Positions 22,757 to 46,759 of a DNA stretch of 64,000 bases are shown in pieces. The DNA lies in contig CALSRS010000001.1 in the NCBI GenBank assembly GCA_943788815.1, forward strand, positions 1,301,501 to 1,365,500, in the 5' to 3' direction. This stretch comes from an uncultured Gammaproteobacteria bacterium (GTDB lineage Bacteria; Pseudomonadota; Gammaproteobacteria; Eutrophobiales; Eutrophobiaceae). Position numbers and translations under genes: made by a program. Under the pieces are notes generated by a model. The model ran no database searches and was not told where the DNA came from. It worked only from the letters and a program-made list of their open reading frames with translations. Position 1 is the stretch's first letter; every line of letters begins with the position of its first letter.

Positions 22757-22788
22757 TGTCCCACTATTGATATAGATATAAAAAAAAA

Positions 22789-24772: not shown

Positions 24773-26443
24773 TTAGTCGACAGAACCTTTTTTCACATAC
24801 GTCCCGGCAAAGGGACTAGCACCATAATCAAGCAGTAACATTTCAATTTCCTTGTCATGCCTGCCAAGAGTCCTACGGAAACGATCATCATAACGACCTA
24901 CACCTACATTACGGTAATAACGTGATTCCGGATCACCAAGTGCAATCATTATTGGAGTCATGCCATAACGATCTTCTGCATCGAGATCCGCACCCTGCTC
25001 GGCAAGAAATTTGACCATATTTTCCCAGCTCAGGGTCGCTGCAAAGTGCAATGTTGTCCGCCCATCAATCTTTCCTGTTCCTGGTCCATTCACAGTGCGG
25101 TCATCCGTCAGTCTGGCATTCACATCTGTACCGCCCAGTGACAGAACATATGTTGCCGCTTCAATCGCCTGTTGTTCATCCCGGGCATGTTTTTCAGCAC
25201 CCCCGCCTGCGGCCAGCATAAACAAGGTCCCTCCTCCCATAGTCTTAGCATGGATATCCGCACCTGCCTCCACCATGATTTTAATGGATTCGGTATCACC
25301 AGAAGCCGCAGCCAGTAATAATGGAGTTGAACCAACGATGTCTATCTGCGACTGGTTGTCATGAACTCTGAGGAAAGGATCATCAAGATAAGGAAGGGTA
25401 TAGGCAACCGGGGCATCAGGGTTTGCACCTTTCGCCAGCAAGGCCTTCATTAACCGGTGCATAGGTTTGTGTATCCAACCCAGGTCATCGGTCCTGGTAG
25501 GTATCCAGTTACTCATATTGAGAATACCCTCATGCACGGTATAGTGAAGAGGTCCCAGACCCCATGCGTTAGTTATATTGGGATCCGCCCCTCGCTCAAG
25601 TAGGTACAGAGCAAGTTCCTCGTGACCTGATGCAGCAGCAATGACGAGGGGACTACCATCTTCATCTGAAGATTCATTAATGTCAGCACCTGCATCCAGC
25701 AAATACCTTATAGTATCGACATTACCTGACTGAGCGGCAAATAATAAGGGAGTGAAATTACCAGTGTATTTCCTGAACCGTGTTGTGGTGGGGAAATTCT
25801 GCCCCATGGTACTTTCCGTTTTGATGAGATAGGGTTCAGGCTCCATTACTGTCCTGGAACGTGGATTAAGTTCTGCCCCTCGATCAATCAGGTCCTTGAC
25901 GATCTCTGCATGACCCTCAGCTGCTGCCCACATCAATGCCGTCTGGTCTTTGTTGTTCTCCCTGGCATTGACATCTGCCCCATGAGCCAGCAGATCTTCG
26001 ACACCCTGTTTCGATCCGGTATTAGCGCAAGTCATTAACGGCGTTTCTCCCGTCCATTTACTTGCATTCGGATCAGCGCCCGCTCTTAGTAACTTTGCGA
26101 TTATGGCAGCATTGTTATTGTTACAGGCAAGATGTAACGGCGCTACCCCATTTTCATTGGCAGCACTAACATCAGGCCCATCACTGCCATATCTCAGCAG
26201 AAGGTCTACCATATCTTCATTGTTGTTATAGACGGCCCAGGCAATTGCGGTAGTTTTATCATTTCGGGAAGCATTTACATCGGCTTTATTATTGAGCAAT
26301 GTCCTGGCATTGCTGATATCACCAATGCGTACCGCATTGAGTAATTCATCATTTATATCTACACCCAGATCCTGAGCCTGGACTGCCGAATTAAGACTTA
26401 TGAATAACCCGACTCCAAGCAGACCATATTTGATATGACTCAT
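24773..26443 (-). CDS. secreted ankyrin-repeat protein (cassette copy 1)
   Basis: 556 aa; signal peptide ending AVQAQ; many ankyrin motifs (NGVAPLHLACNNNNAAIIAKLLRAGADPNA, DQTALMWAAAEGHAEIVKDLIDRGAELN). Confidence 0.9.
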   Translation of the reverse strand: MSHIKYGLLGVGLFISLNSAVQAQDLGVDINDELLNAVRIGDISNARTLLNNKADVNASRNDKTTAIAWAVYNNNEDMVDLLLRYGSDGPDVSAANENGVAPLHLACNNNNAAIIAKLLRAGADPNASKWTGETPLMTCANTGSKQGVEDLLAHGADVNARENNKDQTALMWAAAEGHAEIVKDLIDRGAELNPRSRTVMEPEPYLIKTESTMGQNFPTTTRFRKYTGNFTPLLFAAQSGNVDTIRYLLDAGADINESSDEDGSPLVIAAASGHEELALYLLERGADPNITNAWGLGPLHYTVHEGILNMSNWIPTRTDDLGWIHKPMHRLMKALLAKGANPDAPVAYTLPYLDDPFLRVHDNQSQIDIVGSTPLLLAAASGDTESIKIMVEAGADIHAKTMGGGTLFMLAAGGGAEKHARDEQQAIEAATYVLSLGGTDVNARLTDDRTVNGPGTGKIDGRTTLHFAATLSWENMVKFLAEQGADLDAEDRYGMTPIMIALGDPESRYYRNVGVGRYDDRFRRTLGRHDKEIEMLLLDYGASPFAGTYVKKGSVD

Positions 26444-26460
26444 ATAAAATACCTATAACC

Positions 26461-27798
26461 TTATGCCAATATTCCCTTCAACACACCTGATGCATCACTT
26501 CTTTCTGTGAGAAATTCCGCCGGATCGATGTTGCCCATCTTCATGACCGCCAGATGCAAGTCTGAGACGGCCTCGCCCTTATACTGTATGTGTTCCCCGG
26601 TCTTGAGCTGACCCTGGGCATTTCCCATGACCATCATCGGCACATTGTCATGCAGATGCAGGTTTGCATCGCTGTGGGCACCACCAGTCACAATTACCGA
26701 GTTATCAAGCAAGCTTGAATCACCTTCCTTGATTGAAGTCATCTTATCCATGAAATAGGCAAGCAGATTGGATTGATGCAGCTCTATCTTCTTAACAAGA
26801 TTGATGGATTCAGGGTTACCTTTATGGTGACTGAGAGAGTGATGTCCATCTTTTGCACCCAGTTCCAGAAAATTACGGTTACTACCTTCATGCCCCATCA
26901 TAAACGTTATCATGCGAGTCATGTCCGTCTGGTAAGCCAACACAATCATGTCAAACATGATCTTTACGTGGTCTTCATAAAGGGAAGGAATCCCAACAGG
27001 ACGTTCAAGACCCATACTGGCAAAATCAACAGCCGATTCAGCTGTCTTCCTTTCTGCAACCTCAATACTGCGCTCGATCTCACGAACAGAATCAAGGTAC
27101 TCCTCAAGCTTGTAACGGTCACTGGCATTAACACCAGTCATCAGCCGTCGAACCCTTTCACTCACCTCATCCAGGACGCTGGTCTTACGTTCCAGCCGAC
27201 GCCGCATGGCAACCGGATCCAGGGAATCGGTATCACCAAACAAGCGTTCGAATACCTTTCTGGGATTAATCTGTGTAGGTAAGGGTGTATGCGGATTACG
27301 CCATGAGATGGTACTAGTGTAATAACCTGCCAGACCATCAACCCTGTTAAATGCCCATTCTGGTGGATCCACACCCAGTTCCATGGAAGCAAGCTGAGTT
27401 TCCTCACCGATTTGTTTTGCAATAATCTGGTCTACGGAGACAGCAACCGGACTCTCACTTTTTGTCGGGGTCACGCCTGTCATATACGAAGCACAGGGGC
27501 CCGAATGTGATCCCTTGCCTGCAACCACGTCCAGTCCGCTGAGGACTAAAAAATCATCACGGTGTTTCGCCAGTGGCGCGAGGGTCGGTGACATTTCATA
27601 ATCTCGACCTGTGGTTCGCGGGATCCAGGAATCCATATGCCTGCCTGTATTTAAGTATATATAACCAATACGAAGAGGTTGTTTACCCATCTCAGCCGCC
27701 ATTGCCGGAACCATAGCATCCAGAAACGGTAATGCGAGTGTAGCCCCAGCTCCACGTAAAAATGTACGGCGAGGAATCGCTTTCTTTAATATCAGCAT
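26461..27798 (-). CDS. DUF1552 family protein, Tat-exported (cassette copy 1)
   Basis: 445 aa; Tat motif PRRTFLRGAGATLALPFLDAMVPAMAA; FMMGHEGSNRNFLELGAKDGHHSLSHHKGN; close to the copies at 33152 and 40919. Confidence 0.85.
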   Translation of the reverse strand: MLILKKAIPRRTFLRGAGATLALPFLDAMVPAMAAEMGKQPLRIGYIYLNTGRHMDSWIPRTTGRDYEMSPTLAPLAKHRDDFLVLSGLDVVAGKGSHSGPCASYMTGVTPTKSESPVAVSVDQIIAKQIGEETQLASMELGVDPPEWAFNRVDGLAGYYTSTISWRNPHTPLPTQINPRKVFERLFGDTDSLDPVAMRRRLERKTSVLDEVSERVRRLMTGVNASDRYKLEEYLDSVREIERSIEVAERKTAESAVDFASMGLERPVGIPSLYEDHVKIMFDMIVLAYQTDMTRMITFMMGHEGSNRNFLELGAKDGHHSLSHHKGNPESINLVKKIELHQSNLLAYFMDKMTSIKEGDSSLLDNSVIVTGGAHSDANLHLHDNVPMMVMGNAQGQLKTGEHIQYKGEAVSDLHLAVMKMGNIDPAEFLTERSDASGVLKGILA

Positions 27799-27800
27799 GT

Positions 27801-30272
27801 TCAGAGCCTCCTGTATTGAAATGATGTACTTTCTATAACGCCTAGTATAACAGATGACCAGGTGTAGTTATCTTCACTGGCATCTTTAACGATCTTTCTC
27901 AAGGCAGGCATATCATAATACTCAACCGCCCGTCCTAATGCATACGTCATTAATTTACTGGCAACCGTCTCTACAAAACGATCGGAATGCTTGAGTAAAT
28001 TTTCCTGGAATTCAAGCGAATCATTAAAATCTGTGTTATCGAACAAGATGCCGGAAGTATCTACATCGGCATCAGCTTCAACATAGCGTTCACGGTAGGC
28101 GCCGATAGCGTCAAAGTTTTCCAGTGCCAGGCCAATGGGTTCCATCATCTTATGGCAGTTTGCGCAAACAGGGTTCTGGCGATGGGCTATCATGGCATCT
28201 TTCATCGTTAGTGCCTTGCCTTGATCATTTTTTACCTGCAACTCAGGCTGAAATGCATCAGCAGGTGGTGGAGGCGGAGCCATATTTAACATATTTTCCA
28301 ATACCCATTGGCCCCTGACAACAGGAGAAGTTCGGTTACTAAAAGAGGTAATGGTTAATAACCCTGCCTTACCCAACATGCCATAACGCATTGGATTTTC
28401 CAGCCTAAGCTTGCGGAAATTGTCGCCATATACACCTGTAATGCCATAGTGTTCCGCCAGGCGTTGATTTACAAAAGTCGAATCAGAAGTCAGCATTTCC
28501 TTGATACTTTGATCTTCTCTCACCATATTTTCAAACCATAGTGCAAGTTCCTGCTTCATGGCGGTTCGTAACTCACCATCAAATGTAGTGAAAATTGCCT
28601 TTTGTGGGTCAACGATATCCAGGTTTCGTATCGCCAACCATTGAGATCCAAAATTATCCAGCAAGGCATTGAAGCGTGAGTCAGCAATCATTCTATCTAC
28701 CTGTTGTTTCATTACTTCAGGCTTACGTAACTGACCTGATTCAGCAACACTCAGTAGTTCCTCATCTGGAATACTGCTCCAGAGAAAAAATGATAACCGG
28801 GATGCGAGATCTAGATCTGATATCTTGAATGCCTCACCAGCTGATCCGTCTTGCGGATCCTTTTCAATTCGGAACAGAAACTCAGGACCGGCAAGAATGC
28901 TTTGTAAGGCAAGTTGAATACCTGATTCAAAGCCATCCTGGTCCCGACCTTTACGATATAGCCTGATCAGGCTTTGCATTTCCTCTTCTTTTACCGGTCG
29001 CCGATAAGCCAGATGGGAAATACCAGACAATATTCGGCGGGGACAGGCTTCATCACTGGAATTTTGAGGCTGACAAACAAATATCTTTTTACGACTTGGG
29101 GTATCGGGTGATTCTTTAGCATTGAATGGGCCTGTAACAGTCACATTCAATATTGCCGGTTTACCGCCCTTGTAGCTGGGAAGATCAGTTATTGTTAATT
29201 CCGGCATCTTGACACCGGGTCTCTTAGCGAAGTCATCAAGAAAAGTGACACCCACTGTATGACTCCCAGCCTTGACGTTTACCCTTACTTCCAGATCCTT
29301 GTCAGCAGAGAATTCATAACCAATCTGATCGGGGTCACCGGCATAGTCAACAATCGCATTGTTGGTAAATAATGGGCCTGAGCGGCCATGGACTTCGCCC
29401 CCGATTTTAAGAACTTCGATACGCTTATGATCCAGACGAAAATCCATAAGGTGTTCATTTCTCAGGCCGCGGATATAGCCTTCGTCATTTCTGGTGAGCC
29501 TGGCCCTAATAGTGTATTCGCCATCTAACGGGAAGTAATGCTGAAAAACTGTCCCACCACGGGAACCAAATGGTAGATCGTCCGTGGTCTGACTGTCCTG
29601 CAGATATTCATCCGGCACGTCATAGGATTCACTGGCGGGGCGCATGGATTCAGGGCCAACCGCCAACTGACTTACCCGGTTGGCAGCGTACATATATTGT
29701 TCCATTAATAATGGTGAAACTGACAGGGCATCGGCCATGTTATCGAAGCCCATGTCCACATTATCTGGTGGCAAAAATTTGGTCCCATCGATATCCAGTG
29801 CTAACAAATCGCGGACCGCATTAGTATATTCAGTTCGATTTAAACGGTGTACGGTTGGTCGACCTGGGTCAGGTTTTTTTTCTGCAATAGCATCAAGCTC
29901 TGATGTTAAATAGGAAAGAATAGATATGTACTCAGCCTCGGATGGGCGTGCCGGAAATCCTACCTGGGGCATGGCACGTAATGTCAGCTTGGTAACTACC
30001 TTCTCCCATAGCGCTGGATCTTCACTTACATCTTGGACATTAGCTTTGTCCAACATAAGATTTGCTGTGTTTAACGTTTCGTTATGGCAAGCAACACAAT
30101 ACTTATTTAGCATGTTTCGATAATCATCTGTATTGGCATTGTCCTGGGCACCAACAGGTGTAATTGACGAAACGATGACGAATAAGGCGGCAATTAAAAC
30201 CTTAGCATTAGGTTTATTTGTTACATCTACAAGCAAATATGACAATACGACATCCTCCTGAAATCTTGACAT
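27801..30272 (-). CDS. DUF1592/DUF1588-type (planctomycete-type) dihaem cytochrome c protein (cassette copy 1)
   Basis: 823 aa; N-terminal haem motif CVACHNE, C-terminal CANCHKMMEPIGLALENFDAIG; YRRPVKEEEM and RLSFFLWSSIPDEELL typical of this family. Confidence 0.85.
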   Translation of the reverse strand: MSRFQEDVVLSYLLVDVTNKPNAKVLIAALFVIVSSITPVGAQDNANTDDYRNMLNKYCVACHNETLNTANLMLDKANVQDVSEDPALWEKVVTKLTLRAMPQVGFPARPSEAEYISILSYLTSELDAIAEKKPDPGRPTVHRLNRTEYTNAVRDLLALDIDGTKFLPPDNVDMGFDNMADALSVSPLLMEQYMYAANRVSQLAVGPESMRPASESYDVPDEYLQDSQTTDDLPFGSRGGTVFQHYFPLDGEYTIRARLTRNDEGYIRGLRNEHLMDFRLDHKRIEVLKIGGEVHGRSGPLFTNNAIVDYAGDPDQIGYEFSADKDLEVRVNVKAGSHTVGVTFLDDFAKRPGVKMPELTITDLPSYKGGKPAILNVTVTGPFNAKESPDTPSRKKIFVCQPQNSSDEACPRRILSGISHLAYRRPVKEEEMQSLIRLYRKGRDQDGFESGIQLALQSILAGPEFLFRIEKDPQDGSAGEAFKISDLDLASRLSFFLWSSIPDEELLSVAESGQLRKPEVMKQQVDRMIADSRFNALLDNFGSQWLAIRNLDIVDPQKAIFTTFDGELRTAMKQELALWFENMVREDQSIKEMLTSDSTFVNQRLAEHYGITGVYGDNFRKLRLENPMRYGMLGKAGLLTITSFSNRTSPVVRGQWVLENMLNMAPPPPPADAFQPELQVKNDQGKALTMKDAMIAHRQNPVCANCHKMMEPIGLALENFDAIGAYRERYVEADADVDTSGILFDNTDFNDSLEFQENLLKHSDRFVETVASKLMTYALGRAVEYYDMPALRKIVKDASEDNYTWSSVILGVIESTSFQYRRL

Positions 30273-30689
30273 GATTAGGCTAGAACCAAGCCTTAAAAAA
30301 TACTGCGTGATCTAAGTTCTTTCTTAATTCTAACTTACAAAGATACACCCCGAGTAAATGTCATGTAAATAGCATCAAGACCCTAATTTACACATATATT
30401 TAATATAGTAAGTTATTGATTTTTATAAACAAATATTAATAATCATTCTCATTAAAGCCATAATGACCTTTTGTGCAATGGATAGACCTTTAAAATGTCA
30501 AAATTGATCCTTGTTTGTGACCTTGCGATAGAATTGGAATAGTGCTAAAAATGCATTGTATATATAAGGTATATTTCTGCACAGAGCTTAGGTTTCACTG
30601 TGACTTTTAAGGCACAGTTACCTATTTTTTTCTTGGGATTCATCACGAAGATGGAAACTATATTTATGTTAAGGGGTGGAAATACATAA

Positions 30690-33155
30690 ATGAATTTATT
30701 TTTTCAGAACAAAAGAATTAAAAATAAATTTCTTGCTGGAATAGTTTTGATATTTTCAGGATTGTCATTAAGTGGGAGTGCTTATGCACAAGATACTCTT
30801 GATACTACTGCGTCAGTTTCAAAACAACGGGAATTTTTGACTAAGTATTGTGTTGCCTGCCATAACGAAACGTTAAACACAGCAAATCTTATGTTGGACA
30901 AAGCTAATGTCCAGGATATTAGTGAAGCCCCTGCGCTGTGGGAGAAGGTAGTTACCAAGCTGACATTACGCGCCATGCCCCAGGTTGGTTTTCCCATGAG
31001 ACCCAGTGAGCCAGAATACGAACAGATGTTGTCTTACCTGACCGGGGAACTGGATGCCCTTGCAACAAAAAACTTGAACCCCGGCAAGCCCACGATTCAC
31101 CGATTAAATCGAACGGAATATGCAAACGCGGTCAGAGACCTGCTGAACCTTAAAATCGACCCTGCTGATTACCTTCCACCCGATAATATGGCCGAAGGTT
31201 TTGACAACATCGCAGATGTACTTGCTGTATCTCCTCTACTAATGGAGCAATATGTACTTGCTGCAAGCAAAATCAGCCGGCTTGCCGTTGGGCCTTCCAA
31301 TATGCTGCCGGTGAGTGAAACCTATGAAGTGTCTGAAGAATTTTTACAGAGACACAGGATGAGTGAAGACCTGCCTTTTGGTTCCAGAGGGGGTATTGCT
31401 ATTAAGCATTACTTCCCAATGACCGGGGAATACACCATGCGCGTCAAACTTTCTCGAAACGGCGAAGGTTACATCAGGGGGATGAGACACGAGAACCTTA
31501 TTGATGTCAGGCTGGACCACAATAGACTGGATCTGTTTAAGGTCGGCGGAGAGGTTTTCGGAAAATCAGGTCCACTATTTACGCACAGTCAAAATCCGGA
31601 TTTTGCTGGTGACACAGATCAGATTGGCTATGAACTTTCAGCCGACAAAGATATGGAAGTCACTTTCTCTGTCACAGCAGGGGAGCATCTTGTTGCCGTG
31701 ACATTCATGGATGCAAGCGCTAAAAAAACGGGATACCTGACGCCTGAACTCATGGTTCTCAACGTACAAAACTTTAAGGGTGGCGAAGCGATGCTGGACA
31801 GCGTAGTCATCACTGGCCCTTTTGGTGACACCGAAACCGGCTTAACACCCAGTCGTGAAAAAATCTTTATCTGCGAACCTGGAACAGTCTCCCAAGAAGA
31901 TCTCTGTGCCAACCAAATCATTACAAACATTGCCCATAGGGCGTTTCGCCGACAGGTTAAAGATGCTGAACTAAAAGATTTAATGGCCATGTATCGACAG
32001 GGGAGCAGTGAAGCAGGTTTTAACAGAGGTATAGAACTGGCACTGCAACGAATTCTAGCTGGTCCAGAATTTTTATTTCGAATCGAACAGCAACCGGATA
32101 ATGTAAAACCCGGAACGGTTTATCCTATTTCTGATCTTGACCTTGCCACGCGATTATCATTTTTTCTCTGGAGCAGTATTCCAGACGATGAATTATTGTC
32201 TATTGCTCAACGCAATGAATTACGTAAACCAGGCGTTCTCGAACAACAGGTCAACCGGATGTTAGCGGATGCCAAATCGGAAACGTTTATTAATAACTTT
32301 GGTGAGCAATGGCTGGCTCTGCGCAAGATTGATCTGGCAGCACCACAAAAAGCAGTATTTCCTTTATTTGATGGCGCTTTACGCGATGCGATGAAACAGG
32401 AACTCTCTACCTGGTTTGCCTATATGGTCAAGAGTGACAAAAGTGTACTGGATATACTCGATGCCGATTACACCTTTGTAAATGAAAGACTCGCACAGCA
32501 TTATGGGATTGAAGGTGTGTATGGTGAAAAATTTCGCAAGGTAAAAATAAACCAACCTGAACGAGCTGGATTACTTGGAAAACCGGGCCTTTTAATGGTG
32601 ACCTCATTTAACAGCAGGACGTCACCTGTGGTCAGAGGAAAATGGGTGTTAGAAAACATGGTTGATATGGCCCCACCACCTCCTCCTGCCGACGCATTTG
32701 AACCCGAACTACAAGTCCAGAATAAGGAAGGCAAGGCATTAACAATGAAGGAGGCGATGATAGAACACCGCCAAAATCCGGTTTGCGCCAACTGTCACAA
32801 GATGATGGAACCCATAGGTCTTGCTCTTGAAAATTTTGATGGTATTGGCAGTTATAGATCACTATATGAAGAAGCCAATGCTGCTGTAGATCCTTCAGGG
32901 ATACTTTTTGATAACACTGAATTTTCGGATACCAATGACTTTCGTAAACAATTAATAAAGCATTCTGACCGATTCGTCCACACTGTCGTTATGAAATTGA
33001 TGACCTATGGCCTGGGCAGAAAGATCGAATATTATGACCAACCGGTTATAAGAGATATAATTAATAAAACTGATACTGAGGATTACACCTGGTCGTCTTT
33101 GATACTGGGTGTCATCGAAAGTACACCATTTCAATACAGGAGAACCCCGCTATGA
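30690..33155 (+). CDS. DUF1592/DUF1588-type dihaem cytochrome c protein (cassette copy 2)
   Basis: 821 aa; CVACHNE and CANCHKMMEPIGLALENFDGIG; paralogue of the 27801 product. RBS-like AAGGGGTGG upstream; stop overlaps the next start (ATGA at 33152-33155). Confidence 0.85.
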   Translation: MNLFFQNKRIKNKFLAGIVLIFSGLSLSGSAYAQDTLDTTASVSKQREFLTKYCVACHNETLNTANLMLDKANVQDISEAPALWEKVVTKLTLRAMPQVGFPMRPSEPEYEQMLSYLTGELDALATKNLNPGKPTIHRLNRTEYANAVRDLLNLKIDPADYLPPDNMAEGFDNIADVLAVSPLLMEQYVLAASKISRLAVGPSNMLPVSETYEVSEEFLQRHRMSEDLPFGSRGGIAIKHYFPMTGEYTMRVKLSRNGEGYIRGMRHENLIDVRLDHNRLDLFKVGGEVFGKSGPLFTHSQNPDFAGDTDQIGYELSADKDMEVTFSVTAGEHLVAVTFMDASAKKTGYLTPELMVLNVQNFKGGEAMLDSVVITGPFGDTETGLTPSREKIFICEPGTVSQEDLCANQIITNIAHRAFRRQVKDAELKDLMAMYRQGSSEAGFNRGIELALQRILAGPEFLFRIEQQPDNVKPGTVYPISDLDLATRLSFFLWSSIPDDELLSIAQRNELRKPGVLEQQVNRMLADAKSETFINNFGEQWLALRKIDLAAPQKAVFPLFDGALRDAMKQELSTWFAYMVKSDKSVLDILDADYTFVNERLAQHYGIEGVYGEKFRKVKINQPERAGLLGKPGLLMVTSFNSRTSPVVRGKWVLENMVDMAPPPPPADAFEPELQVQNKEGKALTMKEAMIEHRQNPVCANCHKMMEPIGLALENFDGIGSYRSLYEEANAAVDPSGILFDNTEFSDTNDFRKQLIKHSDRFVHTVVMKLMTYGLGRKIEYYDQPVIRDIINKTDTEDYTWSSLILGVIESTPFQYRRTPL

Positions 33156-34489
33156 TGATATTCAAAAAAGCGATGCCAAGACGTTCCTTCCTCAAGGGTG
33201 CTGGCGCGACAGTTGCGCTACCCTTTCTCGATGCCATGGTTCCTGCCCTGGCTGCAAGCGGTGGAACCGGGCAACGTCCATTCAGAGTGGGTTATATTTA
33301 CCTGCCAACTGGCCGAATCATGGAAAACTGGACACCCTCAAGTACAGGTAGCGACTATAAACTGACCCCAACACTGGAACCTTTCGCTCCCCACCGCGAA
33401 GACATGCTGGTGCTCAGTGGTCTGGATGTCAAAGCAGGCAAGGGTTCTCATTCGGGCCCAGCTGCATCCTATATGACAGGCATTACCCCGGAAAAAGGCA
33501 CAAACACAGTAGGTATCTCTGTTGACCAGGTACTCGCAAAACAGATAGGCAAGGATACAACACTGGCATCTATGGAGCTGGGAATTGATCCACCTGAATG
33601 GGCAGGCGGTGCAGTTGACGGTCTTGCAGGTTATTACACCAGTACTATTTCATGGCGAACTGAAAACACGCCTTTACCCAGGCAAGTGAATCCTAGAAAC
33701 GTCTTTGAAAGATTATTTGGTGATACTGATACTCTGGATCCTGAAGCATTAAAAAAACGGATGGAGTCAAAGAGCAGCATCCTCGATTCGGTTGGTGAAG
33801 GCGTAAAAAGATTAATGACTTCAGTCGGCACAACAGATAAATATAAACTCGAAGAGTATTTTGAAGCTGTGCGTGACATAGAAAGAGGTATCGAGGTTAC
33901 TGAAACCAAATCTATGAATCAGGGATTTATTGATTCAGACATTATACGACCGGCAGGAATCCCCGTTACATATGAAGACCACGCAAACTTGATGTTCGAC
34001 ATGATGTTACTCTCATACCAAACAGATATGACGCGGGTGATCTCTTTCATGTTGGGCCATGAAGGCAGCGACAGAAATTATCTTGAACTGGGTGCAAAAG
34101 ACGGACATCACTCACTAACCCATCATAAAGGCAGACAGGAAGCGATTGATCTCGTTAAAAAGATCGATTTGCACCAGTCTGATTTATTGTCCCGCTTCAT
34201 TAGTAAAATGAAAGCGGCAGATGATGGGGAAGGATCTTTACTGGATAATACAGTCATTGTGGCCGGATGCGCACATAGTGATGGTAACCTGCATTTACAC
34301 ACTGATGTACCTACCCTGGTATTTGGAGGCGGTGTGAAAAATATTAAAGGTGGAAGACATATCCGTTATGAAGGTGACCCGGTATCCAATCTACACCTCA
34401 AGGTAATGGAAATGGCTGAAGTCTCTTCAGAAGAATACCTGACTGAGAAGAGTGATGCGACTGGTGTACTTGAAGGACTGACCGCATAA
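33152..34489 (+). CDS. DUF1552 family protein, Tat-exported (cassette copy 2)
   Basis: 445 aa; PRRSFLKGAGATVALPFLDAMVPALAA; FMLGHEGSDRNYLELGAKDGHHSLTHHKG. Confidence 0.85.
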   Translation: MMIFKKAMPRRSFLKGAGATVALPFLDAMVPALAASGGTGQRPFRVGYIYLPTGRIMENWTPSSTGSDYKLTPTLEPFAPHREDMLVLSGLDVKAGKGSHSGPAASYMTGITPEKGTNTVGISVDQVLAKQIGKDTTLASMELGIDPPEWAGGAVDGLAGYYTSTISWRTENTPLPRQVNPRNVFERLFGDTDTLDPEALKKRMESKSSILDSVGEGVKRLMTSVGTTDKYKLEEYFEAVRDIERGIEVTETKSMNQGFIDSDIIRPAGIPVTYEDHANLMFDMMLLSYQTDMTRVISFMLGHEGSDRNYLELGAKDGHHSLTHHKGRQEAIDLVKKIDLHQSDLLSRFISKMKAADDGEGSLLDNTVIVAGCAHSDGNLHLHTDVPTLVFGGGVKNIKGGRHIRYEGDPVSNLHLKVMEMAEVSSEEYLTEKSDATGVLEGLTA

Positions 34490-34509
34490 CACTCCTTTTA
34501 AAAAAAACT

Positions 34510-36192: not shown

Positions 36193-36207
36193 AATTTATT
36201 TACCCTG

Positions 36208-36233
36208 CATTTTGTGATATCAATCACAAAATG
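36208..36233. promoter_or_regulatory. CRP/FNR-superfamily-like operator palindrome
   Basis: CATTTTGTGA-TATCAA-TCACAAAATG, a perfect 10 bp inverted repeat containing exactly TGTGA-N6-TCACA; lies between the ankyrin stop (36192) and the cytochrome c start (36441). Confidence 0.45.
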
Positions 36234-36440
36234 AGGTGAATCTCCGAATTAAACATCAATTTCCACCAAAATAAGCTAATCATTCAGAACTAAAATCTAT
36301 ATTAGAAGGTCGAATATAGTACTTAGAGAGAGTTTAATGAAACCCGCAGTTTTGGTATGATACGTGCGGCATAACAAAGGAAGTTATCTTCCCTAACATT
36401 TGAAGAGTTTATTAAAGTTGTTAATTCAAGAGGAAAAATA

Positions 36441-36761
36441 ATGAAAAATTTGAGCTATATATCTGCGCTTGCTTGTACACTGTTTTTAGTTGGCGTTTCA
36501 CCCGCACAGGCTGCTGGCGATGCTGCTGCCGGAGAATCACTTTATTCATCCATGGGATGCATGGGATGTCATGGTCCGTCGGGTAACAGTGCAATGCCTG
36601 ATATGTTTCCAAAGTTAGCTGGTCTCGAAGAAGCATATATTGATGAACAGTTACATGCTTTCAAGAGTGGTGAAAGACAAAATGCCACGATGCAGCCGAT
36701 GAGCAGCAGTCTCTCAGATGCGGATATTGCTAACATGGCAGCCTATTTAGCAGCACAATAA
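36441..36761 (+). CDS. class I c-type cytochrome
   Basis: 106 aa; signal peptide ending AQAA, haem motif CMGCHGPSGNS, Met-ligand candidate region NATMQPMSSSLSD. Confidence 0.9.
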   Translation: MKNLSYISALACTLFLVGVSPAQAAGDAAAGESLYSSMGCMGCHGPSGNSAMPDMFPKLAGLEEAYIDEQLHAFKSGERQNATMQPMSSSLSDADIANMAAYLAAQ

Positions 36762-36768
36762 CTTTACA

Positions 36769-36806
36769 GTTAGCCGGTCATCATTGCTTTTTGATGATCG
36801 GCTAAC
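36769..36806 (+). terminator. intrinsic-terminator-like hairpin after cytochrome c
   Basis: GTTAGCCGGTCATCA-loop-TGATGATCGGCTAAC, 15 bp stem with one G-T wobble. Confidence 0.6.
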
Positions 36807-36823
36807 CTTCATAGGTTGTATTC

Positions 36824-38182
36824 ATGCTTTTAGTCAAAATAATTCAATACAGCCTTTCCAGGAATCATCCCAAGCTCCTTGTACTTTTAATTACACTCAT
36901 ATTGCCTAATGCTTTTGCGCAGGATCTTAGCAGGGCACAAGCAACTGATGGCCCAAGTTTAATTCCCCAGGAAGGCATTGCGCTGTATGACCGTGAACAT
37001 CCGGTAATTGGTTACTCAACTCAAGCACCCATAGATAGATTTGCGCGACTGGGGCGTGAGATTGCAACTGGGAAGATTTCACTTAATAAAAATTCTACTC
37101 AAGGCTATTTAAGTGACCTGTTAGATAAACTTGAAATTGATCCAGATTCTCAAACCCTGGTTTATTCCAGAACCAGTCTTAACACAGGGTTAATCAGGGC
37201 AAATAATCCACGGGCGATCTATTTTAACGATGATACTTACGTTGCATGGGTGCCTGGTACTAATGTTATTGAAATCGCAACTATGGATCCTAACCTCGGG
37301 CCAGTATTTTATCTATTTGATCCCGATAGTATTGGTATCGAACGACAAGCAGGACAGTGTTTACGCTGTCACGATTCACTTACTTTATCCGGTGGTGGAG
37401 TTCCTCGATTTATACTTGGCTCGGGTTATACCTACTTTAATGGCAGCCTGGTTTCTCATGAAGGCTGGATACTCACCGACCAGGAAACACCTATAAAATT
37501 TCGCTGGGGTGGATGGTATGTCACGGGGCAGCATGGCAAGCAAGTTCATCTCGGAAATATTGTGGTGTCAAAGGCAGAAGAATTACAAGACCTTGAACAG
37601 GCGCGAATTGGGAATATAAACCGTCTGGATGATTTCTTTAAGACAGAATTATATCTCACACCCAACAGCGATATCGATGCGCTGATGGTATTAGAACATC
37701 AGGTACAAATACAAAACATGATTACCCGGGTAAATTATGATGTACGAAATTTACTTGTGCGTGAATTCACCAGCGTGATGAATGAAAGTGGGATATCACA
37801 GGAGACTAAAACCAGTATTACCGAGATTATTGAACCCCTGGTCAAGGCAATGTTCATGGTTGGTGAGGCGGAAGTTATAGACAGTATGAATGGAAATACA
37901 GGATATAGAAACAATTTTGAAGCTCGAGGACCAGTAGATTCCAAAGGAAGGTCTCTCAGGCAACTGGACCTGGAGTCCAGGCTATTTCGATACCCGTTGA
38001 GTTATCTGGTTTATTCAAGCGAATTTAAAGCCCTGCCAGGCCTGGCGAAAGAATTAATATTCGAACGATTTAATACCATACTCAATGGGAATGATACCAG
38101 TGACTCGTACTTACACCTCGATGAAAATGACAGGCTTGCCATTTATGAAATACTGACTGAAACACATCCGGATTTCCAATAA
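36824..38182 (+). CDS. secreted monohaem c-type cytochrome-like hypothetical protein
   Basis: 452 aa; signal peptide ending NAFAQ; one CxxCH motif GQCLRCHDSLTLSGGGVPRFI. Confidence 0.6.
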   Translation: MLLVKIIQYSLSRNHPKLLVLLITLILPNAFAQDLSRAQATDGPSLIPQEGIALYDREHPVIGYSTQAPIDRFARLGREIATGKISLNKNSTQGYLSDLLDKLEIDPDSQTLVYSRTSLNTGLIRANNPRAIYFNDDTYVAWVPGTNVIEIATMDPNLGPVFYLFDPDSIGIERQAGQCLRCHDSLTLSGGGVPRFILGSGYTYFNGSLVSHEGWILTDQETPIKFRWGGWYVTGQHGKQVHLGNIVVSKAEELQDLEQARIGNINRLDDFFKTELYLTPNSDIDALMVLEHQVQIQNMITRVNYDVRNLLVREFTSVMNESGISQETKTSITEIIEPLVKAMFMVGEAEVIDSMNGNTGYRNNFEARGPVDSKGRSLRQLDLESRLFRYPLSYLVYSSEFKALPGLAKELIFERFNTILNGNDTSDSYLHLDENDRLAIYEILTETHPDFQ

Positions 38183-38277
38183 AGAACCTCTTAGAATTAT
38201 GCGCAAACAGTACTAATACTTTGTCACTAATATTATTATACTTTTAAATATTAAAGCCTTTACTAAAGGAGAAACAG

Positions 38278-39150
38278 ATGGATCGTAAGATTTCTGATCT
38301 TTATGACGAATACCTGCATACCCCCATGGGACGAAGAAACTTCATGCACAAACTGACCTTACTTACGGGTAGCGTCGCGGCCGCATCGGCGGCACTTTCC
38401 CTACTGGAAGGAAACCAGGCGGTAGCTGCACAGGTAGAAGAAAATGATCCCCGGCTTCGTACTTCAATGATTTCCTACCCAGGTGCAGATGGTGAGGTTA
38501 AAGCCTATATGGCGCAACCAGTAGGCGCAGGAAAATTACCTGCCATCATAGTGATGCATGCCAATCGTGGTCTTTGGCCACACTTCAAAGATGTTACTCG
38601 CAAGATGGCATTAGGTGGGTTTATTGCGATCGCCCCGGATATGTTGTCGAGGGCCGGAGGCACACCAGAAGGTAATTCCAGAGGCCCAGAAGGTGATGAG
38701 GCATTGGCAAACCTGGCAAAAATAGATTCTAGTGATATCGAAAATGATTATGTTGCTGCGGTAAACTTTCTTAAAAATCATAACGAAACAACAGGTAAAG
38801 TGGGATCTATCGGATTTTGCTGGGGAGGAGGACACTCACTGGGGCTTGCGGTAAATTCGCCAGATCTAGGTGCTGCTGTTGCTTATTATGGCTCACCCCC
38901 AACATCCGGCTATGAAAAAATCTGCGCCCCTATACTGGGAAACTATGCCGCAGATGATCCTAGACTGGTCGGCAGCCTGCCGGACTTTATCAGTAACATG
39001 GAAAAAAATGCTAAGCCCTATGAGCTGTATATCTATCCGGGAACAAAACATGCCTTCAACCAGGACAACCGACCTGATCGATACAATCCAGAGGCTGCAA
39101 ATCTTGCCTGGGAACGTACTACATCATTTTTCAAGAAACACCTGGCTTAA
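38278..39150 (+). CDS. dienelactone hydrolase family protein, Tat-like signal
   Basis: 290 aa; MGRRNFMHK Tat-like motif; Cys nucleophile motif IGFCWGGGHSLG; C-terminal YPGTKHAFNQDNRPDRYN. Confidence 0.85.
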   Translation: MDRKISDLYDEYLHTPMGRRNFMHKLTLLTGSVAAASAALSLLEGNQAVAAQVEENDPRLRTSMISYPGADGEVKAYMAQPVGAGKLPAIIVMHANRGLWPHFKDVTRKMALGGFIAIAPDMLSRAGGTPEGNSRGPEGDEALANLAKIDSSDIENDYVAAVNFLKNHNETTGKVGSIGFCWGGGHSLGLAVNSPDLGAAVAYYGSPPTSGYEKICAPILGNYAADDPRLVGSLPDFISNMEKNAKPYELYIYPGTKHAFNQDNRPDRYNPEAANLAWERTTSFFKKHLA

Positions 39151-39173
39151 AATAATTATTTTTATGTCACACT

Positions 39174-39207
39174 GGATCCGGAGTACTTGCATAATTTCTC
39201 CGGATCC
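39174..39207. terminator. probable bidirectional terminator between convergent genes
   Basis: GGATCCGGAG-loop-CTCCGGATCC (10 bp arms) between the convergent genes ending at 39150 (+) and 39248 (-). Confidence 0.5.
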
Positions 39208-39247
39208 TGAGTGGCATTAATGAATTGTTTTTTTTAATAGCGAAATA

Positions 39248-40897
39248 TTATTCGCCAGAACGGTCGCGAAATTTACCAGTAAACGGTTTTGCACCCAGCT
39301 CTAACAATAGAGATGAGAGTTTCTTGTTCTCAATTGGGGGAGGCGAACGAAATCTAAAGTCTGAATTACCTGCACCTACCTGTCTAAACAACCTGCCTTC
39401 TGGATCGCCCATAGCCATGAGCATGGGCGTCATCCCATAACGATCTTTTGCATCTAAATCAGCGCCATTATCCGCCAGGAAACGAATCATGTTTGACCAG
39501 CCAAGATAAACCGCATGGTGCAAGCCTGTTCGACCATCTTGTTTGCCCTTTCCCGGACCAATAGCTGCGATCTCAGTCAGCGCGGCATTTACATTTACAT
39601 CTCCCAGGGACAACAAAAATTTGGCTGCTTCAATAGCATCGGCTTCATTGCGAGCACCTCTTTCTGATCCCAGTCCTGCCGCAAGCATAAATGCTGTACC
39701 ACCACCTATGGTCTCCACATTTTTGTCAGCGCCATATTCAAGAAGGTATTGCATAGCTTCAATATCACTGGAAATAGCAGCAATCATAAACGGAGTAGCC
39801 CCCACTGGATCCACCTGGGGAGGATCTTCCATAGCGCGAGAAAAAAATTCCATGTTGTGATATGGCAAGGAAAATTTTATCTTCGCATTTGGATCGGCAC
39901 CTTTTTCAAGTAGTGCCTTTACCACTTTAGGCATATTACTGCGGGTCCAACCAAACTTGTCCGTATCTGATGGTCGGAAGGTGTTAATTATGAGGACGCC
40001 TTCATGTAAGGCGTAATGTAAGGGTGTCATTCCCCATCCATCACTGACATTGGGATCTGCGCCGTTTTCAAGGAGCAGCATCGCCATCGCCTCATGACCA
40101 CTCTGTAGCGCAATGATAAGCGGTATACCATATTCACTATTTGAGGCATTGATATCCGCGCCAGCACTTATAAGTACCGTCGCTGATTCTATCGCTCCTT
40201 GTTGGGCAGCAAAATACAATGGCGTAAACCCACCGGTATATTTAGCAAAACGGATGGTATGCGGATAATTCTGACCAAAAACGACATTTTCATCTTCAAT
40301 GATATAAGTTTCGGGTTCCGGGATAAGTTTAGACACCGCATTCACATCTCCACCGGCATCAACCAGAAGCTTTACTGCATCTACATTATTTTCTGCAGCT
40401 GCCCACATCAAGGCAGTCTGGTTTTCCCGGTTGTCACTGGCATTAACATTGGCGCCGTGCTGTATCAATGCCTGCACCGCACTCGTTACTCCAAAATTAG
40501 CGCACAACATTAATGGTGAGACACCGGTAAGCTTATTTAGATTGGGATCAGCGCCCGCTTCCAACAGACTGATAACGATGGGAGCATTGCTGTTTTCACA
40601 GGCAAGAGATAGTGGCGTTACTCCAAAATCATTCGCCTTATTAACATCAGCACCAGCAGTTAACAATGAATTTACAGCCGTTTCATTATTATGATAAACC
40701 GCCCACGCAAGCACGCTGGTCCCATCACCTTGAGCTAAATTAATATCTTCACCTTGTGATATCAGGTTTTGTATTTGATCGAACTTATTATCTTTGGCTA
40801 CATCAAGCAAAGTTAACGCTGGACAATTAATAGCGAAAATACTGAGTAGCAGGATAAGGACTGGCTTTACCTGCCAGAGATACAGTCGCATTACCAT
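39248..40897 (-). CDS. secreted ankyrin-repeat protein (cassette copy 3)
   Basis: 549 aa; ankyrin repeats (FGVTPLSLACENSNAPIVISLLEAGADPN); C-terminal region homologous to the copies at 24773 and 34510. Confidence 0.9.
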   Translation of the reverse strand: MVMRLYLWQVKPVLILLLSIFAINCPALTLLDVAKDNKFDQIQNLISQGEDINLAQGDGTSVLAWAVYHNNETAVNSLLTAGADVNKANDFGVTPLSLACENSNAPIVISLLEAGADPNLNKLTGVSPLMLCANFGVTSAVQALIQHGANVNASDNRENQTALMWAAAENNVDAVKLLVDAGGDVNAVSKLIPEPETYIIEDENVVFGQNYPHTIRFAKYTGGFTPLYFAAQQGAIESATVLISAGADINASNSEYGIPLIIALQSGHEAMAMLLLENGADPNVSDGWGMTPLHYALHEGVLIINTFRPSDTDKFGWTRSNMPKVVKALLEKGADPNAKIKFSLPYHNMEFFSRAMEDPPQVDPVGATPFMIAAISSDIEAMQYLLEYGADKNVETIGGGTAFMLAAGLGSERGARNEADAIEAAKFLLSLGDVNVNAALTEIAAIGPGKGKQDGRTGLHHAVYLGWSNMIRFLADNGADLDAKDRYGMTPMLMAMGDPEGRLFRQVGAGNSDFRFRSPPPIENKKLSSLLLELGAKPFTGKFRDRSGE

Positions 40898-40918
40898 GAA
40901 ATGTCTATGTCGCTACGA

Positions 40919-42265
40919 CTATACCAGGCCAGGCAAAATGCCGGTGGCATCGCTGGTGTCATTTGAGACAAATTCATCAGTAGGTGTTTCAAACATATCC
41001 ATCACTGCCAAATGCAGATTGGATAAAGGCTCGCTGTTATATCGGACATGACGTCCACCATTGATTCGACCCTGGCCTGCTCCCAATACCAAGGTAGGAA
41101 CATCATTATGGATATGCAGGTTACCGTCACTCAATGCACTACCTGCAATAATAATTGAATTATCCAGTAGTGATGTATCGCCTTCCATAGTGGTCTTCAT
41201 CTTATTCAGGAAATATGCGAGCAATTTAGATTGATACAGATTAACTTTCTTTAACATCTCGATGGCAGGCTTATTTCCTTTATGATGTGAAAGTGAATGA
41301 TGACCATCCTGGGCACCCAGCTCCAGATAATTACGGTTAGTCCCTTCATGGCCCATCATAAATGCAACCACACGGGTCATGTCAGTCTGGTAGGCAAGAA
41401 ACATTAGATCAAAAATCAAACGTGCATGCTCATCATACCTGGCCGGGATACCAGCAGGCCGGTTAAAATCCGCAACTTCCTTGCTTTCACCAGCAACTTT
41501 GGTTTCTGCTACCTGTATACCTCTTTCAATATCTCTGACGGCATCAAGATATTCTTCTATCTTATACTTGTCATTGCTATTAACCCGTTTCATTAATCGG
41601 TTTGCCCTTGAGTTTACCGAATCCAGCACACTGCTACGTTCCTCAATACGCTGCTTCATCGCCTTAGGATCGACTGTATCAGTGTCACCAAATAGACGTT
41701 CAAATACTTTTCGGGGATTATCCTGCGTAGGTAAAGGTGAAGTCGCCGAAGACCAACTTAAGGTACTGCGATAAAATCCATCGTAATCAACTTCGTTACC
41801 ACCTGCCCATTCAGCTGGATCCAGACCCAATTGCAGTGATGCCATCTGGGTTTGTGAGCCAATCTTTCTGGCCACATATTGATCAACAGAGATACCCACC
41901 GAATTATCATAAGGATGTACACCCGTCAGGTAAGCGGCACAGGGTCTGGCATGGGTTCCACCTCGTTCCCCTGGTCTGAGATCCGCAGCCTTAATATCCA
42001 GGCCGCTCAATACCAGCATGTCATCTCTATAGGGTGCCAATGGGGCAAGAGTCGGCGTCAGTTCATAATCACGCCCCTGACTTTTTGGCGTCCAGTTTTC
42101 CATGATGCGTCCCACAGGTAGATAGATATACCCGAGTCTTAATGGATTTTTAGCCGGTGATGCAGCCAGGGCAGGAACCATGGCATCCAGAAAAGGCAGA
42201 GCAAGTGAAGCACCTGCACCTTTTAAGAAGGTACGACGCGGTAGAGATTTTTTAAATATCATCAT
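40919..42265 (-). CDS. DUF1552 family protein, Tat-exported (cassette copy 3)
   Basis: 448 aa; LPRRTFLKGAGASLALPFLDAMVPALAA; FMMGHEGTNRNYLELGAQDGHHSLSHHKGN. Confidence 0.85.
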   Translation of the reverse strand: MMIFKKSLPRRTFLKGAGASLALPFLDAMVPALAASPAKNPLRLGYIYLPVGRIMENWTPKSQGRDYELTPTLAPLAPYRDDMLVLSGLDIKAADLRPGERGGTHARPCAAYLTGVHPYDNSVGISVDQYVARKIGSQTQMASLQLGLDPAEWAGGNEVDYDGFYRSTLSWSSATSPLPTQDNPRKVFERLFGDTDTVDPKAMKQRIEERSSVLDSVNSRANRLMKRVNSNDKYKIEEYLDAVRDIERGIQVAETKVAGESKEVADFNRPAGIPARYDEHARLIFDLMFLAYQTDMTRVVAFMMGHEGTNRNYLELGAQDGHHSLSHHKGNKPAIEMLKKVNLYQSKLLAYFLNKMKTTMEGDTSLLDNSIIIAGSALSDGNLHIHNDVPTLVLGAGQGRINGGRHVRYNSEPLSNLHLAVMDMFETPTDEFVSNDTSDATGILPGLV

Positions 42266-42349
42266 GGTAGCTGTGCCTCTGCATTATCTTCTTATCTAAT
42301 TCTTGTCTATTTACTGTCAAAATTCAAATTGTCAAAATTATTCAGCAAT

Positions 42350-44761
42350 TTACCGGGCTTTTCGATACTGAAACGGCCTGCTTTCAACCACTGCCTGGAT
42401 GAGTGCAGACCAGGTATATCCCTGGTCACCAATTTTCCTCACAATGTCCCTGACTTCGGGTTGATCATAATATTCCAGTCCGCGACCCAGGGCATAGGTC
42501 AGCATTTTTTCTGCTACGGTATGTACCATACGATCAGAATGACTGACGAGTCTTTCCCGGAATTCACTGGTGGAACTAAAAGGACTTCCATCGAACAAGA
42601 TACCTTCGGGATTCACATCAGTCCCTGCCTCTTCATAGCGGGTTCGATACGCCCCTATGGCATTATAGTTTTCAAGGGCAAAACCAATGGGATCCATAAG
42701 TTTATGACATGATGCGCAAACGGGATTCGCACGGTGCTTTTCCATGGCCTGCTTCATTGTCATTACCTTGCCGTCATCACTTTCCACCTGAAGTACAGGT
42801 TGAAAGGCATCATCAGGTGGAGGAGGTGGTGGCATATTCAACAGGTTTTCCAACACCCATTTTCCTCGTAATACAGGGGAAGTCCTATTATTGTAGGAAG
42901 TTGCTGTTAGCAGGCTGCCTTTTCCTAACAGGCCAATACGTTCTTCATGCTCTTTGAGATCAACTTTCCTGAAGCGACTACCATGGACACCTGCTATGCC
43001 GTAATGCCTGGCCAGTCGCTCATTAAGATACGTAAAGTCTGATGTTAATAGTTCATTGATACTCTGATCTTCGCGCACCATATCTGAGAACCACATATGT
43101 GTTTCAATTTTCATGGCCTCGCGAAGTTCATTATCAAACTCAGCAAATATCTCGGGATGAGGGGCAATAATGTCCATGTCTCTTACCGACAACCATTGAT
43201 TGCCGAAATTGTTTATAAAGGTATTCGATCTGGGATCGGCTAATAATCTCGAAACTTGTGCATTGAGTATTCCAGGTTCTCCCAAGCTGCCTTGCTCAGC
43301 AAGTGATATCAATTCTTCATCCGGTAAACTGTTCCATAAAAAGAAAGACAAACGGGATGCCAATTCAAGATCTGATATAGGGTATATGGAACCCGGCACA
43401 ACACTGTTGGGATCTTCTTCAACACGAAACAGAAATTCTGGACCAGACAGAATGCCCTGTAGAGCAAGACTAATGCCTCCCTTAAAACCATTTCTGTCCC
43501 TGCCTGTCTGAAACAGGTCCATAAGTTCTTTCATATCGGTATCGCTAACCGGACGTCGGTATGCCTGGACTGCCAGTCCCGATAGAATACGTTTGGCACA
43601 CTGGTCTTGTTCATCTGTTGAGTCGGGTGTGCAGGTAAATATCTTTTCCTGGCTGGCCGTTATCCCAGGGCCGGAGGCCTTAAATGGTCCGGTAATGGTG
43701 ACGCTGGCAACTGCGGGCTCTCCACCCTTGTAGGAACCAATATCCAACAGCGTCATTTCTGGTTTTTTCATACCGGTAGGCTTGGTATCGTAGTCAACAA
43801 ATGAAACCCCTAGCAGATGAGAGCCTGCTGTTGCAGTAAATACTACTTCAAGTACTTCGTCTGCATTAAATTCATATTTTGTCTGTTCAGCTTCGCCCGC
43901 ATAGGCCGGGTTCTGACTTTCATTAAACAATGGACCACTGGCGCCCAGCCGTTTTCCACCAATATCAATTAGCTGCAAACGTTCATGGTCCAGCCGGATA
44001 TCCAGCTGGTGCTGATTACGCAAGCCACGGATATAACCCTCCATACTTCGTTGAAACTTCACATTGATCCTATACTCACCGTCCATAGGAAAATAATGAT
44101 CAAAGGCAACACCGCCCCGGGTACCCAACGGGAGGTTTTCATTCATTCTTGATCTCTGAATGAATTCAGGTGAGACATTAACAGTCTCACTTGCGGGTAA
44201 CATCTCATCGGGGCCTACAGCGAGCTTGCTTATCTTGCTAGCAGCTAACATGTATTGTTCCATTAACAAAGGAGATACAGCGAGTACATCAGCAATATTG
44301 TCAAACCCATGGCCGATATTGTCAGGTGGCAATAATTCCTGGACATCCACATCCATAGCGAGGAGATCGCGTATGGCATTTGCATATTCTGTTCGATTTA
44401 ATCTACGAACGGTGACACTACCTGGATTAAGATTCGATTCAGCAAGCTTGTCCAGTTCGGTTTGCAGGTAAGTGATGAGTTGATGATATTCTTGATCTGT
44501 AGGCCGTACTGGTATTCCTACAGGGGGCATTGCCCTTAGCGTCAGTTTTAAATTGACCCTTTCCCATAGTGCCGGATCCTGAGTAATATCATTAATATCC
44601 GCTTTATCAAGGAGCAGGTTGGCTGTCTTTAAGGTTTCGTTGTGACAACTCACACAATACTTATTTACCAAGGCCCGATTGTCTGACTGTGCCTGTACCA
44701 GACTTGAAAAAATCAGTAATACAAAAGATATGCTTAGGTAATTAAATCTGTAACCACACAT
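42350..44761 (-). CDS. DUF1592/DUF1588-type dihaem cytochrome c protein (cassette copy 3)
   Basis: 803 aa; CVSCHNE and CASCHKLMDPIGFALENYNAIG; RLSFFLWNSLPDEELI. Confidence 0.85.
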   Translation of the reverse strand: MCGYRFNYLSISFVLLIFSSLVQAQSDNRALVNKYCVSCHNETLKTANLLLDKADINDITQDPALWERVNLKLTLRAMPPVGIPVRPTDQEYHQLITYLQTELDKLAESNLNPGSVTVRRLNRTEYANAIRDLLAMDVDVQELLPPDNIGHGFDNIADVLAVSPLLMEQYMLAASKISKLAVGPDEMLPASETVNVSPEFIQRSRMNENLPLGTRGGVAFDHYFPMDGEYRINVKFQRSMEGYIRGLRNQHQLDIRLDHERLQLIDIGGKRLGASGPLFNESQNPAYAGEAEQTKYEFNADEVLEVVFTATAGSHLLGVSFVDYDTKPTGMKKPEMTLLDIGSYKGGEPAVASVTITGPFKASGPGITASQEKIFTCTPDSTDEQDQCAKRILSGLAVQAYRRPVSDTDMKELMDLFQTGRDRNGFKGGISLALQGILSGPEFLFRVEEDPNSVVPGSIYPISDLELASRLSFFLWNSLPDEELISLAEQGSLGEPGILNAQVSRLLADPRSNTFINNFGNQWLSVRDMDIIAPHPEIFAEFDNELREAMKIETHMWFSDMVREDQSINELLTSDFTYLNERLARHYGIAGVHGSRFRKVDLKEHEERIGLLGKGSLLTATSYNNRTSPVLRGKWVLENLLNMPPPPPPDDAFQPVLQVESDDGKVMTMKQAMEKHRANPVCASCHKLMDPIGFALENYNAIGAYRTRYEEAGTDVNPEGILFDGSPFSSTSEFRERLVSHSDRMVHTVAEKMLTYALGRGLEYYDQPEVRDIVRKIGDQGYTWSALIQAVVESRPFQYRKAR

Positions 44762-46652: not shown

Positions 46653-46734
46653 GATTGATATGACATTATCAAAATAGTGCCATATCCATACAACTTGTAC
46701 TAGCTGATAATCAAAATTTGAAAAATGGCAAAAA

Positions 46735-46759
46735 AAAACCGGGGACTAGCCCCGGTTTT
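46735..46759 (-). terminator. intrinsic terminator of the TonB receptor gene
   Basis: AAAACCGGGG-ACTAG-CCCCGGTTTT with A8 on the left side (U-tract on minus). Confidence 0.85.

Follow-up and report, generated by a model that had tools for sequence, protein, structure and literature searches.

A three-gene cassette, encoding a c-type cytochrome of the DUF1592 type (CYT), a DUF1552 protein with a twin-arginine translocation (Tat)-type leader and a secreted ankyrin-repeat protein (ANK), occurs three times in a 64,000-nucleotide stretch (the window) of the genome of an uncultured gammaproteobacterium (assembly GCA_943788815.1). We found 17 such cassettes in this genome, and the ankyrin gene proved to be a near-constant neighbour of one large clade of DUF1592-DUF1552 pairs. 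The pair was already known, with its function unknown; the ankyrin partner is the new feature and is limited to this clade.

Cassettes in the window

All nine open reading frames (ORFs) that a first-pass annotation of the window had assigned to the three cassettes were recovered at the same coordinates (Table 1), as were the 4 bp stop/start overlap between the cytochrome and DUF1552 genes of cassette 2 and the 2 bp gap at the same place in cassette 1. In cassette 3 this gap is 84 bp, and in all three cassettes 17-21 bp separates the DUF1552 gene from the ankyrin gene. The three cytochromes each matched Pfam families DUF1587, DUF1595, DUF1592, DUF1588 and DUF1585 above the curated cut-off and contained exactly two CxxCH motifs (for example, at positions 54 and 699 of protein P0006). 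The DUF1552 proteins scored 285-304 bits against PF07586 (cut-off 30) and have N-terminal RR-x-F-L Tat-like leaders; each ankyrin protein has a hydrophobic leader.

The cytochromes of the three copies are 57-62% identical in protein and about 63-73% identical in DNA, and two of the cassettes cluster on the cytochrome tree with cassettes of a genus-mate, not with each other. We therefore rejected a local triplication; by these measures the window copies are old paralogues. The first-pass description of the cassette as triplicated holds for the window but understates the genome. Similarly, the C-terminal DRYGMTP...GDPE stretch that it singled out is present in all three window ankyrin proteins, and L016 and L027 also have a version, but the genome's remaining 13 ankyrin proteins lack it. 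The idea of a special domain was rejected, since the stretch is simply the final ankyrin repeat in one subclade.

Cassettes across the genome

The genome (3.23 Mb, 99% complete, three contigs) was searched with PF07586 for DUF1552, PF07631 for DUF1592 and Ank_2 for ankyrin repeats, and the surroundings of every match were inspected. The 17 cassettes account for all 17 DUF1592 genes, 17 of the 18 DUF1552 genes and all 18 ankyrin genes. Every cassette has the order CYT-DUF1552-ANK on a single strand; the gap between the first two genes does not exceed 2 bp in 15 of 17, and that between the last two does not exceed 50 bp in any. All 82 Ank_2 matches in the genome fell inside the 18 cassette genes and none outside, so that ankyrin proteins of this kind exist here only as partners of the pair. 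One cassette carries two tandem ankyrin genes (L025:1399-5287), and a solitary DUF1552 gene (L017:5424-6773) has neither a cytochrome nor an ankyrin neighbour.

Evolutionary distances among the 17 cassettes were strongly correlated between the three proteins (r = 0.90 for CYT-DUF1552, 0.89 for CYT-ANK and 0.84 for DUF1552-ANK), whereas the maxima over 2,000 shuffles per pair were 0.36-0.52. For 108 complete trios, the corresponding values were 0.84, 0.81 and 0.73. Judged by these distances, each trio of genes has evolved as a unit with no evident mixing of partners. Because shared inheritance of linked genes also yields such a correlation, the co-variation supports a unit rather than physical contact.

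The ankyrin partner in other lineages

The DUF1552 family is patchily distributed. Four genus-mates had 10, 13, 17 and 20 matches, and among the other members of the taxonomic family that were searched, one genome had a copy. The family was encoded by 8 of 398 genomes sampled evenly across Pseudomonadota and by 18 of 119 sampled from the phylum to which a Vicinamibacterales genome belongs, and single acidobacterial genomes reached 35-40 copies. Three loci (L029, L059 and L077) come from genomes that are filed as Klebsiella pneumoniae but carry many family copies and seem to be wrongly labelled metagenome bins; the genome of L029 has the same matches as a genus-mate of the window organism.

We applied profiles of the three proteins to 80 loci from named genomes, to 60 stretches picked by their DUF1552 matches and to plasmid records. 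Within the 60 stretches, which were chosen regardless of ankyrin, an ankyrin neighbour accompanied 35 DUF1552 genes and was missing from 21 despite enough flanking sequence, with 6 further genes lying near contig ends. The mixture arises because the ankyrin-linked cytochromes form one clade: on a tree of 150 cytochromes, a single clade of 120 had an ankyrin neighbour in every case, and the remaining 30 had none except for one weak match (66 bit). Ankyrin presence required two changes on this tree, compared with a mean of 26.9 for shuffled labels.

The clade takes in other Gammaproteobacteria, a Novosphingobium plasmid (L115) and many Acidobacteriota, together with a Gemmatimonadetes bin and an Acidimicrobiia bin (identified by record title only); as placed on the tree, the ankyrin link spans at least two phyla. 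The association expected beyond the organism's own clade was thus found. What is kept is the linkage and not the order DUF1592-DUF1552-Ank: the ankyrin gene lies downstream on the same strand in 90 ankyrin-bearing loci, upstream and divergent in 22, and upstream on the same strand in 7. The arrangement changed at least 16 times on the 150-cytochrome tree (before the search for exceptions described below) while the link was retained, so positional inheritance alone is hard to accept as an explanation. Sequence features were also maintained across the 108 trios, with two or more CxxCH motifs in 106 cytochromes, a twin-arginine (RRxFL-type) motif in 100 DUF1552 proteins and a hydrophobic N-terminus in 93-101 ankyrin proteins, depending on the cut-off.

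Predicted structures and conserved residues

The predicted structure of the DUF1552 protein had a mean predicted local distance difference test score (pLDDT) of 82. When it was searched against the PDB with Foldseek, all of the 50 best matches were, from their descriptions, members of the alkaline phosphatase superfamily, including sulfatases, phosphatases and others (probability 0.91-1.00, E 7e-6 to 1e-3). The protein therefore looks like a diverged version of this fold and not like a known dehydrogenase fold. A profile comparison with DUF1501 covered 379 columns (probability 73, E 3e-5) and aligned the invariant His100 of DUF1552 with a conserved His of DUF1501. In 48 DUF1552 sequences, H100, H320 and H324 are invariant; D125 and H381 are also invariant, as are several more His, Asp, Glu and Arg residues, and E304 and H325 are nearly so. 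Conservation does not extend to an acidic residue that follows the first strand.

No sulfatase Pfam match was found in the DUF1552 proteins, nor was the C/S-x-P-x-R formylglycine motif of sulfatases; the stretch before the TG motif begins with an invariant His. A comparison with a sulfatase profile was uninformative: the sulfatases extracted for it made a poor set, and the control failed as well. The Pfam model of the Tat leader, PF10518, matched 14 of the 18 DUF1552 proteins of the genome weakly.

For the cytochrome, the predicted structure (pLDDT 89.5) had no PDB fold match below E 0.001, and a predicted beta-sandwich part gave weak matches resembling carbohydrate-binding modules (CBMs), all at E above 0.004. 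Sequence searches of the PDB with the cytochrome and with DUF1552 returned no convincing solved relative.

A possible three-part extracytoplasmic unit

We give an even chance to the reading that the cassette encodes a functional unit outside the cytoplasm, comprising a two-haem cytochrome, a substrate-binding DUF1552 protein and an ankyrin scaffold, which delivers electrons to the respiratory chain. Behind it stand the gene families themselves, the export-type leaders, the haem motifs and the operon-like spacing, as well as the three-way linkage, the near one-to-one copy numbers and the co-variation of the three proteins. The DUF1592-type protein would be a two-haem c-type cytochrome with a beta-sandwich insert. 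Being exported by the Tat route, the DUF1552 protein would probably be folded before export, perhaps with metal already loaded, and could carry the substrate site and catalyse the reaction in its diverged alkaline-phosphatase-superfamily core, which is equipped with His and acidic residues. The ankyrin protein would serve as a dedicated scaffold or docking subunit positioning the other two in a physical complex, and electrons from the substrate reaction would pass to the haems and on to the respiratory chain. With 10-40 diverged copies per genome, the modules would be paralogues serving different substrates.

Two ankyrin-less pairs on Sphingobium plasmids (L117:2274-17460 and L206:2596-17774) are followed by a cytochrome b561, with a cytochrome c' also beside the pair in L117, and these neighbours suggest electron exchange with the quinone pool. 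A periplasmic haem complex of the three proteins, as put forward in the first-pass annotation, is plausible; its further assignment to an oxidase or dehydrogenase would be drawn from two things only, the haem motifs and the neighbouring genes. More tentatively, it is possible, if doubtful, that the cassettes define a family of three-part periplasmic oxidoreductases in which a phosphatase-superfamily protein has turned into a His-rich redox metalloenzyme, joined to a two-haem cytochrome and an ankyrin subunit and present in 10-40 substrate-specific copies in some bacteria.

Several observations weigh against a dedicated three-part unit. The Foldseek template-modelling scores for DUF1552 are low (0.3-0.5). 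The neighbours of the cassettes in the genome, including pyrroloquinoline quinone (PQQ) dehydrogenases, TonB receptors, amidases, amidohydrolases, a dienelactone hydrolase and oxidase subunits, vary so widely that no single pathway is indicated. In other lineages the pair occurs without an ankyrin neighbour: on a Planctomyces plasmid, on the Sphingobium plasmids, with very large pseudomonadotal cytochromes and in a sister acidobacterial group. Finally, a deliberate search for exceptions in a complete Vicinamibacterales (Acidobacteriota) chromosome (G466) uncovered three clade-type cassettes with no adjacent ankyrin gene (L207, L209 and L210); a further cassette, L208, has a separated cytochrome. 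The first-pass view of the ankyrin protein as an obligate third partner accordingly stands in part: the partner is near-constant outside the genus, across phyla and through rearrangement, but it does not accompany DUF1592/DUF1552 pairs generally, and because of these three clade members the word is slightly too strong for linkage.

On a tree extended to the G466 loci, ankyrin presence required seven changes, part of which reflects misassignment: L212 was credited with an ankyrin gene that is part of the next cassette. Of the 37 ankyrin loci in G466, 31 have a DUF1552 gene no more than 8 kb away (random placement: mean 3.8, maximum 11). Five unlinked ankyrin genes (L226-L229) match the cassette ankyrin model over nearly its full length at 382-427 bits, as the linked ones do, compared with 62 bits for an unrelated ankyrin protein. 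The chromosome encodes about 36 cassette-type ankyrin genes and about 35 clade-type DUF1552 genes. From these near-equal counts and the unlinked genes, the displaced partner seems to be kept in trans.

Two features of the ankyrin-less loci were also recorded. Four pseudomonadotal pairs (L164, L165, L166 and L167) have very large cytochrome ORFs (about 1,600-2,400 amino acids), and some ankyrin-less acidobacterial cassettes adjoin a nucleoside-hydrolase-like gene (L101:10712-11806, L120:5407-6456 and L080:10408-11499), of which only that in L120 matched PF01156, weakly, the other two being judged by sequence only. This gene was rejected as a general alternative partner, since it lies beside only a few ankyrin-less cassettes.

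Related systems

FAD-glucose and fructose dehydrogenases are flavin enzymes of three subunits, among them a Tat-exported one and a cytochrome. The cassettes resemble these enzymes in combining a cytochrome, a Tat-exported subunit and a third protein in one operon, but the fold predicted for DUF1552 differs, an ankyrin protein takes the third place, and Pfam found no glucose-methanol-choline (GMC) flavin domain in the window cassette proteins. In a parallel case, a planctomycete cytochrome of the DUF1549/DUF1553 type is paired with the Tat-type protein DUF1501; the domains of this cytochrome differ from those of the cassette cytochrome, and a Pfam search found no DUF1501 in the window genome.

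Close relatives are the PSCyt/PSD cytochromes of Planctomycetes and Verrucomicrobia, which have the same Pfam domains as the cassette cytochrome and an adjoining DUF1552 gene. According to the excerpted text of PMC5615132, PSCyt genes adjoin conserved unknown genes, one such gene lying beside the PSCyt3-type genes of the planctomycete and verrucomicrobial set, and nothing is known of their function. The pair also occurs on the Planctomyces plasmid. The plasmid copy has no ankyrin partner and the same excerpt mentions none, whereas the cassettes described here have one. In the open-access literature searched, DUF1552 and DUF1592 each turned up in two papers, and DUF1552 was never named together with DUF1592 or with ankyrin; subscription papers lay outside the search, and an earlier mention there is possible.

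Alternative explanations

The alternative that survives best, although we consider it somewhat unlikely, is that the ankyrin protein acts as a transient assembly or maturation factor of the exported pair, as AnkB may for the catalase KatB. The title of Howell 2000 (cited in PMC10294975) states that periplasmic AnkB is needed for optimal KatB activity in Pseudomonas, and titles in the same source describe ankyrin-like proteins supporting catalases in Pseudomonas aeruginosa (AnkB-KatB) and Xanthomonas (AnkB-CatB). Co-inheritance and near one-to-one numbers would suit a dedicated chaperone equally well as a subunit. However, the partner in those systems is a catalase, whereas in the window genome it is DUF1592/DUF1552 in every cassette, and one ankyrin protein per paralogue, co-varying with its own cytochrome, exceeds what a general chaperone would need.

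It is distinctly less probable that the pair supplies electrons for oxidative attack on polysaccharides and that the ankyrin protein serves for attachment. The model would be Cbp2D of Cellvibrio japonicus, which shares DUF1587 and c-type cytochrome domains with the cassette cytochrome; in the excerpted text of PMC8981238, one of its cytochrome domains reduces lytic polysaccharide monooxygenases (LPMOs), and deletion of Cbp2D with Cbp2E slows growth on cellulose. The CBM-like matches of the beta-sandwich and the pseudomonadotal pairs with cytochrome ORFs of about 1,600 amino acids or more would fit such a role. Nevertheless, those matches are weak, as their E values indicate; Cbp2D has its own CBM2 and YceI/X158 modules, whereas Pfam found no YceI/X158 or CBM module in the window cassette proteins; the excerpt mentions no ankyrin partner of Cbp2D; no LPMO was noticed beside the cassettes; and the window genome, besides having no DUF1501, has one sulfatase match.

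We regard as improbable a role in oxidising hydrophobic terpenoid- or steroid-like compounds imported through TonB receptors. This idea comes from the Sphingobium plasmids, on which both ankyrin-less pairs lie near a TonB receptor and genes of steroid-degradation type (KshA_C and a BphC-type dioxygenase on one plasmid, FadE30 on another); one of the strains was isolated from tomato roots, in work on the breakdown of steroidal saponins (PMC10653915). Yet the Sphingobium branch is distant and has no ankyrin protein, and no KshA_C was found in the window genome, four genus-mates, one further family member or two family-rich Acidobacteriota. A steroid pathway in the window genome was rejected on this ground.

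Least probable by far is a mobile or selfish three-gene block with the ankyrin gene as a passenger: large copy numbers and an occurrence, within the taxonomic family, in one genus and one other genome among those searched might suggest it, but the ankyrin gene was kept through the changes of order, the copies are old and diverged, and G466, which has ankyrin-less cassettes, still retains unlinked ankyrin genes of this family.

Layout and surroundings of the window cassettes

Cassettes 1 and 2 diverge from an intergenic region that probably holds the promoters of both (Table 1). A Fur-box-like sequence lies within it, at about 30430-30452, but Fur regulation of the cassettes was rejected, as the match is absent at most other cassettes.

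Table 1 Coordinates of the cassette genes and intergenic region in the window.
Feature	Position	Strand	Evidence
Cassette 1 cytochrome, two CxxCH, DUF1587/1595/1592/1588/1585, 823 aa	27801..30272	-	ORF + Pfam
Cassette 1 Tat-type DUF1552 (HXXSHH) protein, 445 aa	26461..27798	-	ORF + Pfam
Cassette 1 secreted ankyrin-repeat protein, 556 aa	24773..26443	-	ORF + Pfam
Divergent intergenic region of cassettes 1/2, with Fur-box-like sequence	30273..30689		Box matches 15/19; 0/200 shuffles as good
Cassette 2 cytochrome, two CxxCH, 821 aa	30690..33155	+	ORF + Pfam
Cassette 2 Tat-type DUF1552 protein, 445 aa	33152..34489	+	ORF + Pfam
Cassette 2 secreted ankyrin-repeat protein, 560 aa	34510..36192	+	ORF + Pfam
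Cassette 3 cytochrome, two CxxCH, 803 aa	42350..44761	-	ORF + Pfam
Cassette 3 Tat-type DUF1552 protein, 448 aa	40919..42265	-	ORF + Pfam
Cassette 3 secreted ankyrin-repeat protein, 549 aa	39248..40897	-	ORF + Pfam

Cassettes 1 and 3 are directly flanked by regions (19267-24582 and 44880-49560) that each contain genes for a PQQ-type dehydrogenase and a TonB-dependent receptor. A third TonB-dependent receptor gene has thiamine-pyrophosphate enzyme genes on both sides (50314-57437). Between cassettes 2 and 3 lies a gene for a 452-amino-acid protein with no Pfam match (36824-38182). Amidohydrolase-family genes are dense in the window (8247-10346, 12384-14471, 17344-18867, 58593-59993 and 62983-63897), and two proteins of about 570 amino acids with no Pfam match (6288-8006 and 10606-12318) are encoded among numerous genes for amidohydrolases and von Willebrand factor A proteins.

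Implications

PSCyt/DUF1592 and DUF1552 proteins are abundant in several phyla, and a conserved third protein provides a handle on their function. The ankyrin partner marks a clade, can be tagged for pull-down of any complex, and focuses the search on redox roles in the periplasm. The 17 diverged copies in this genome, together with the 10-20 in its close relatives, form natural comparisons for substrate specificity.

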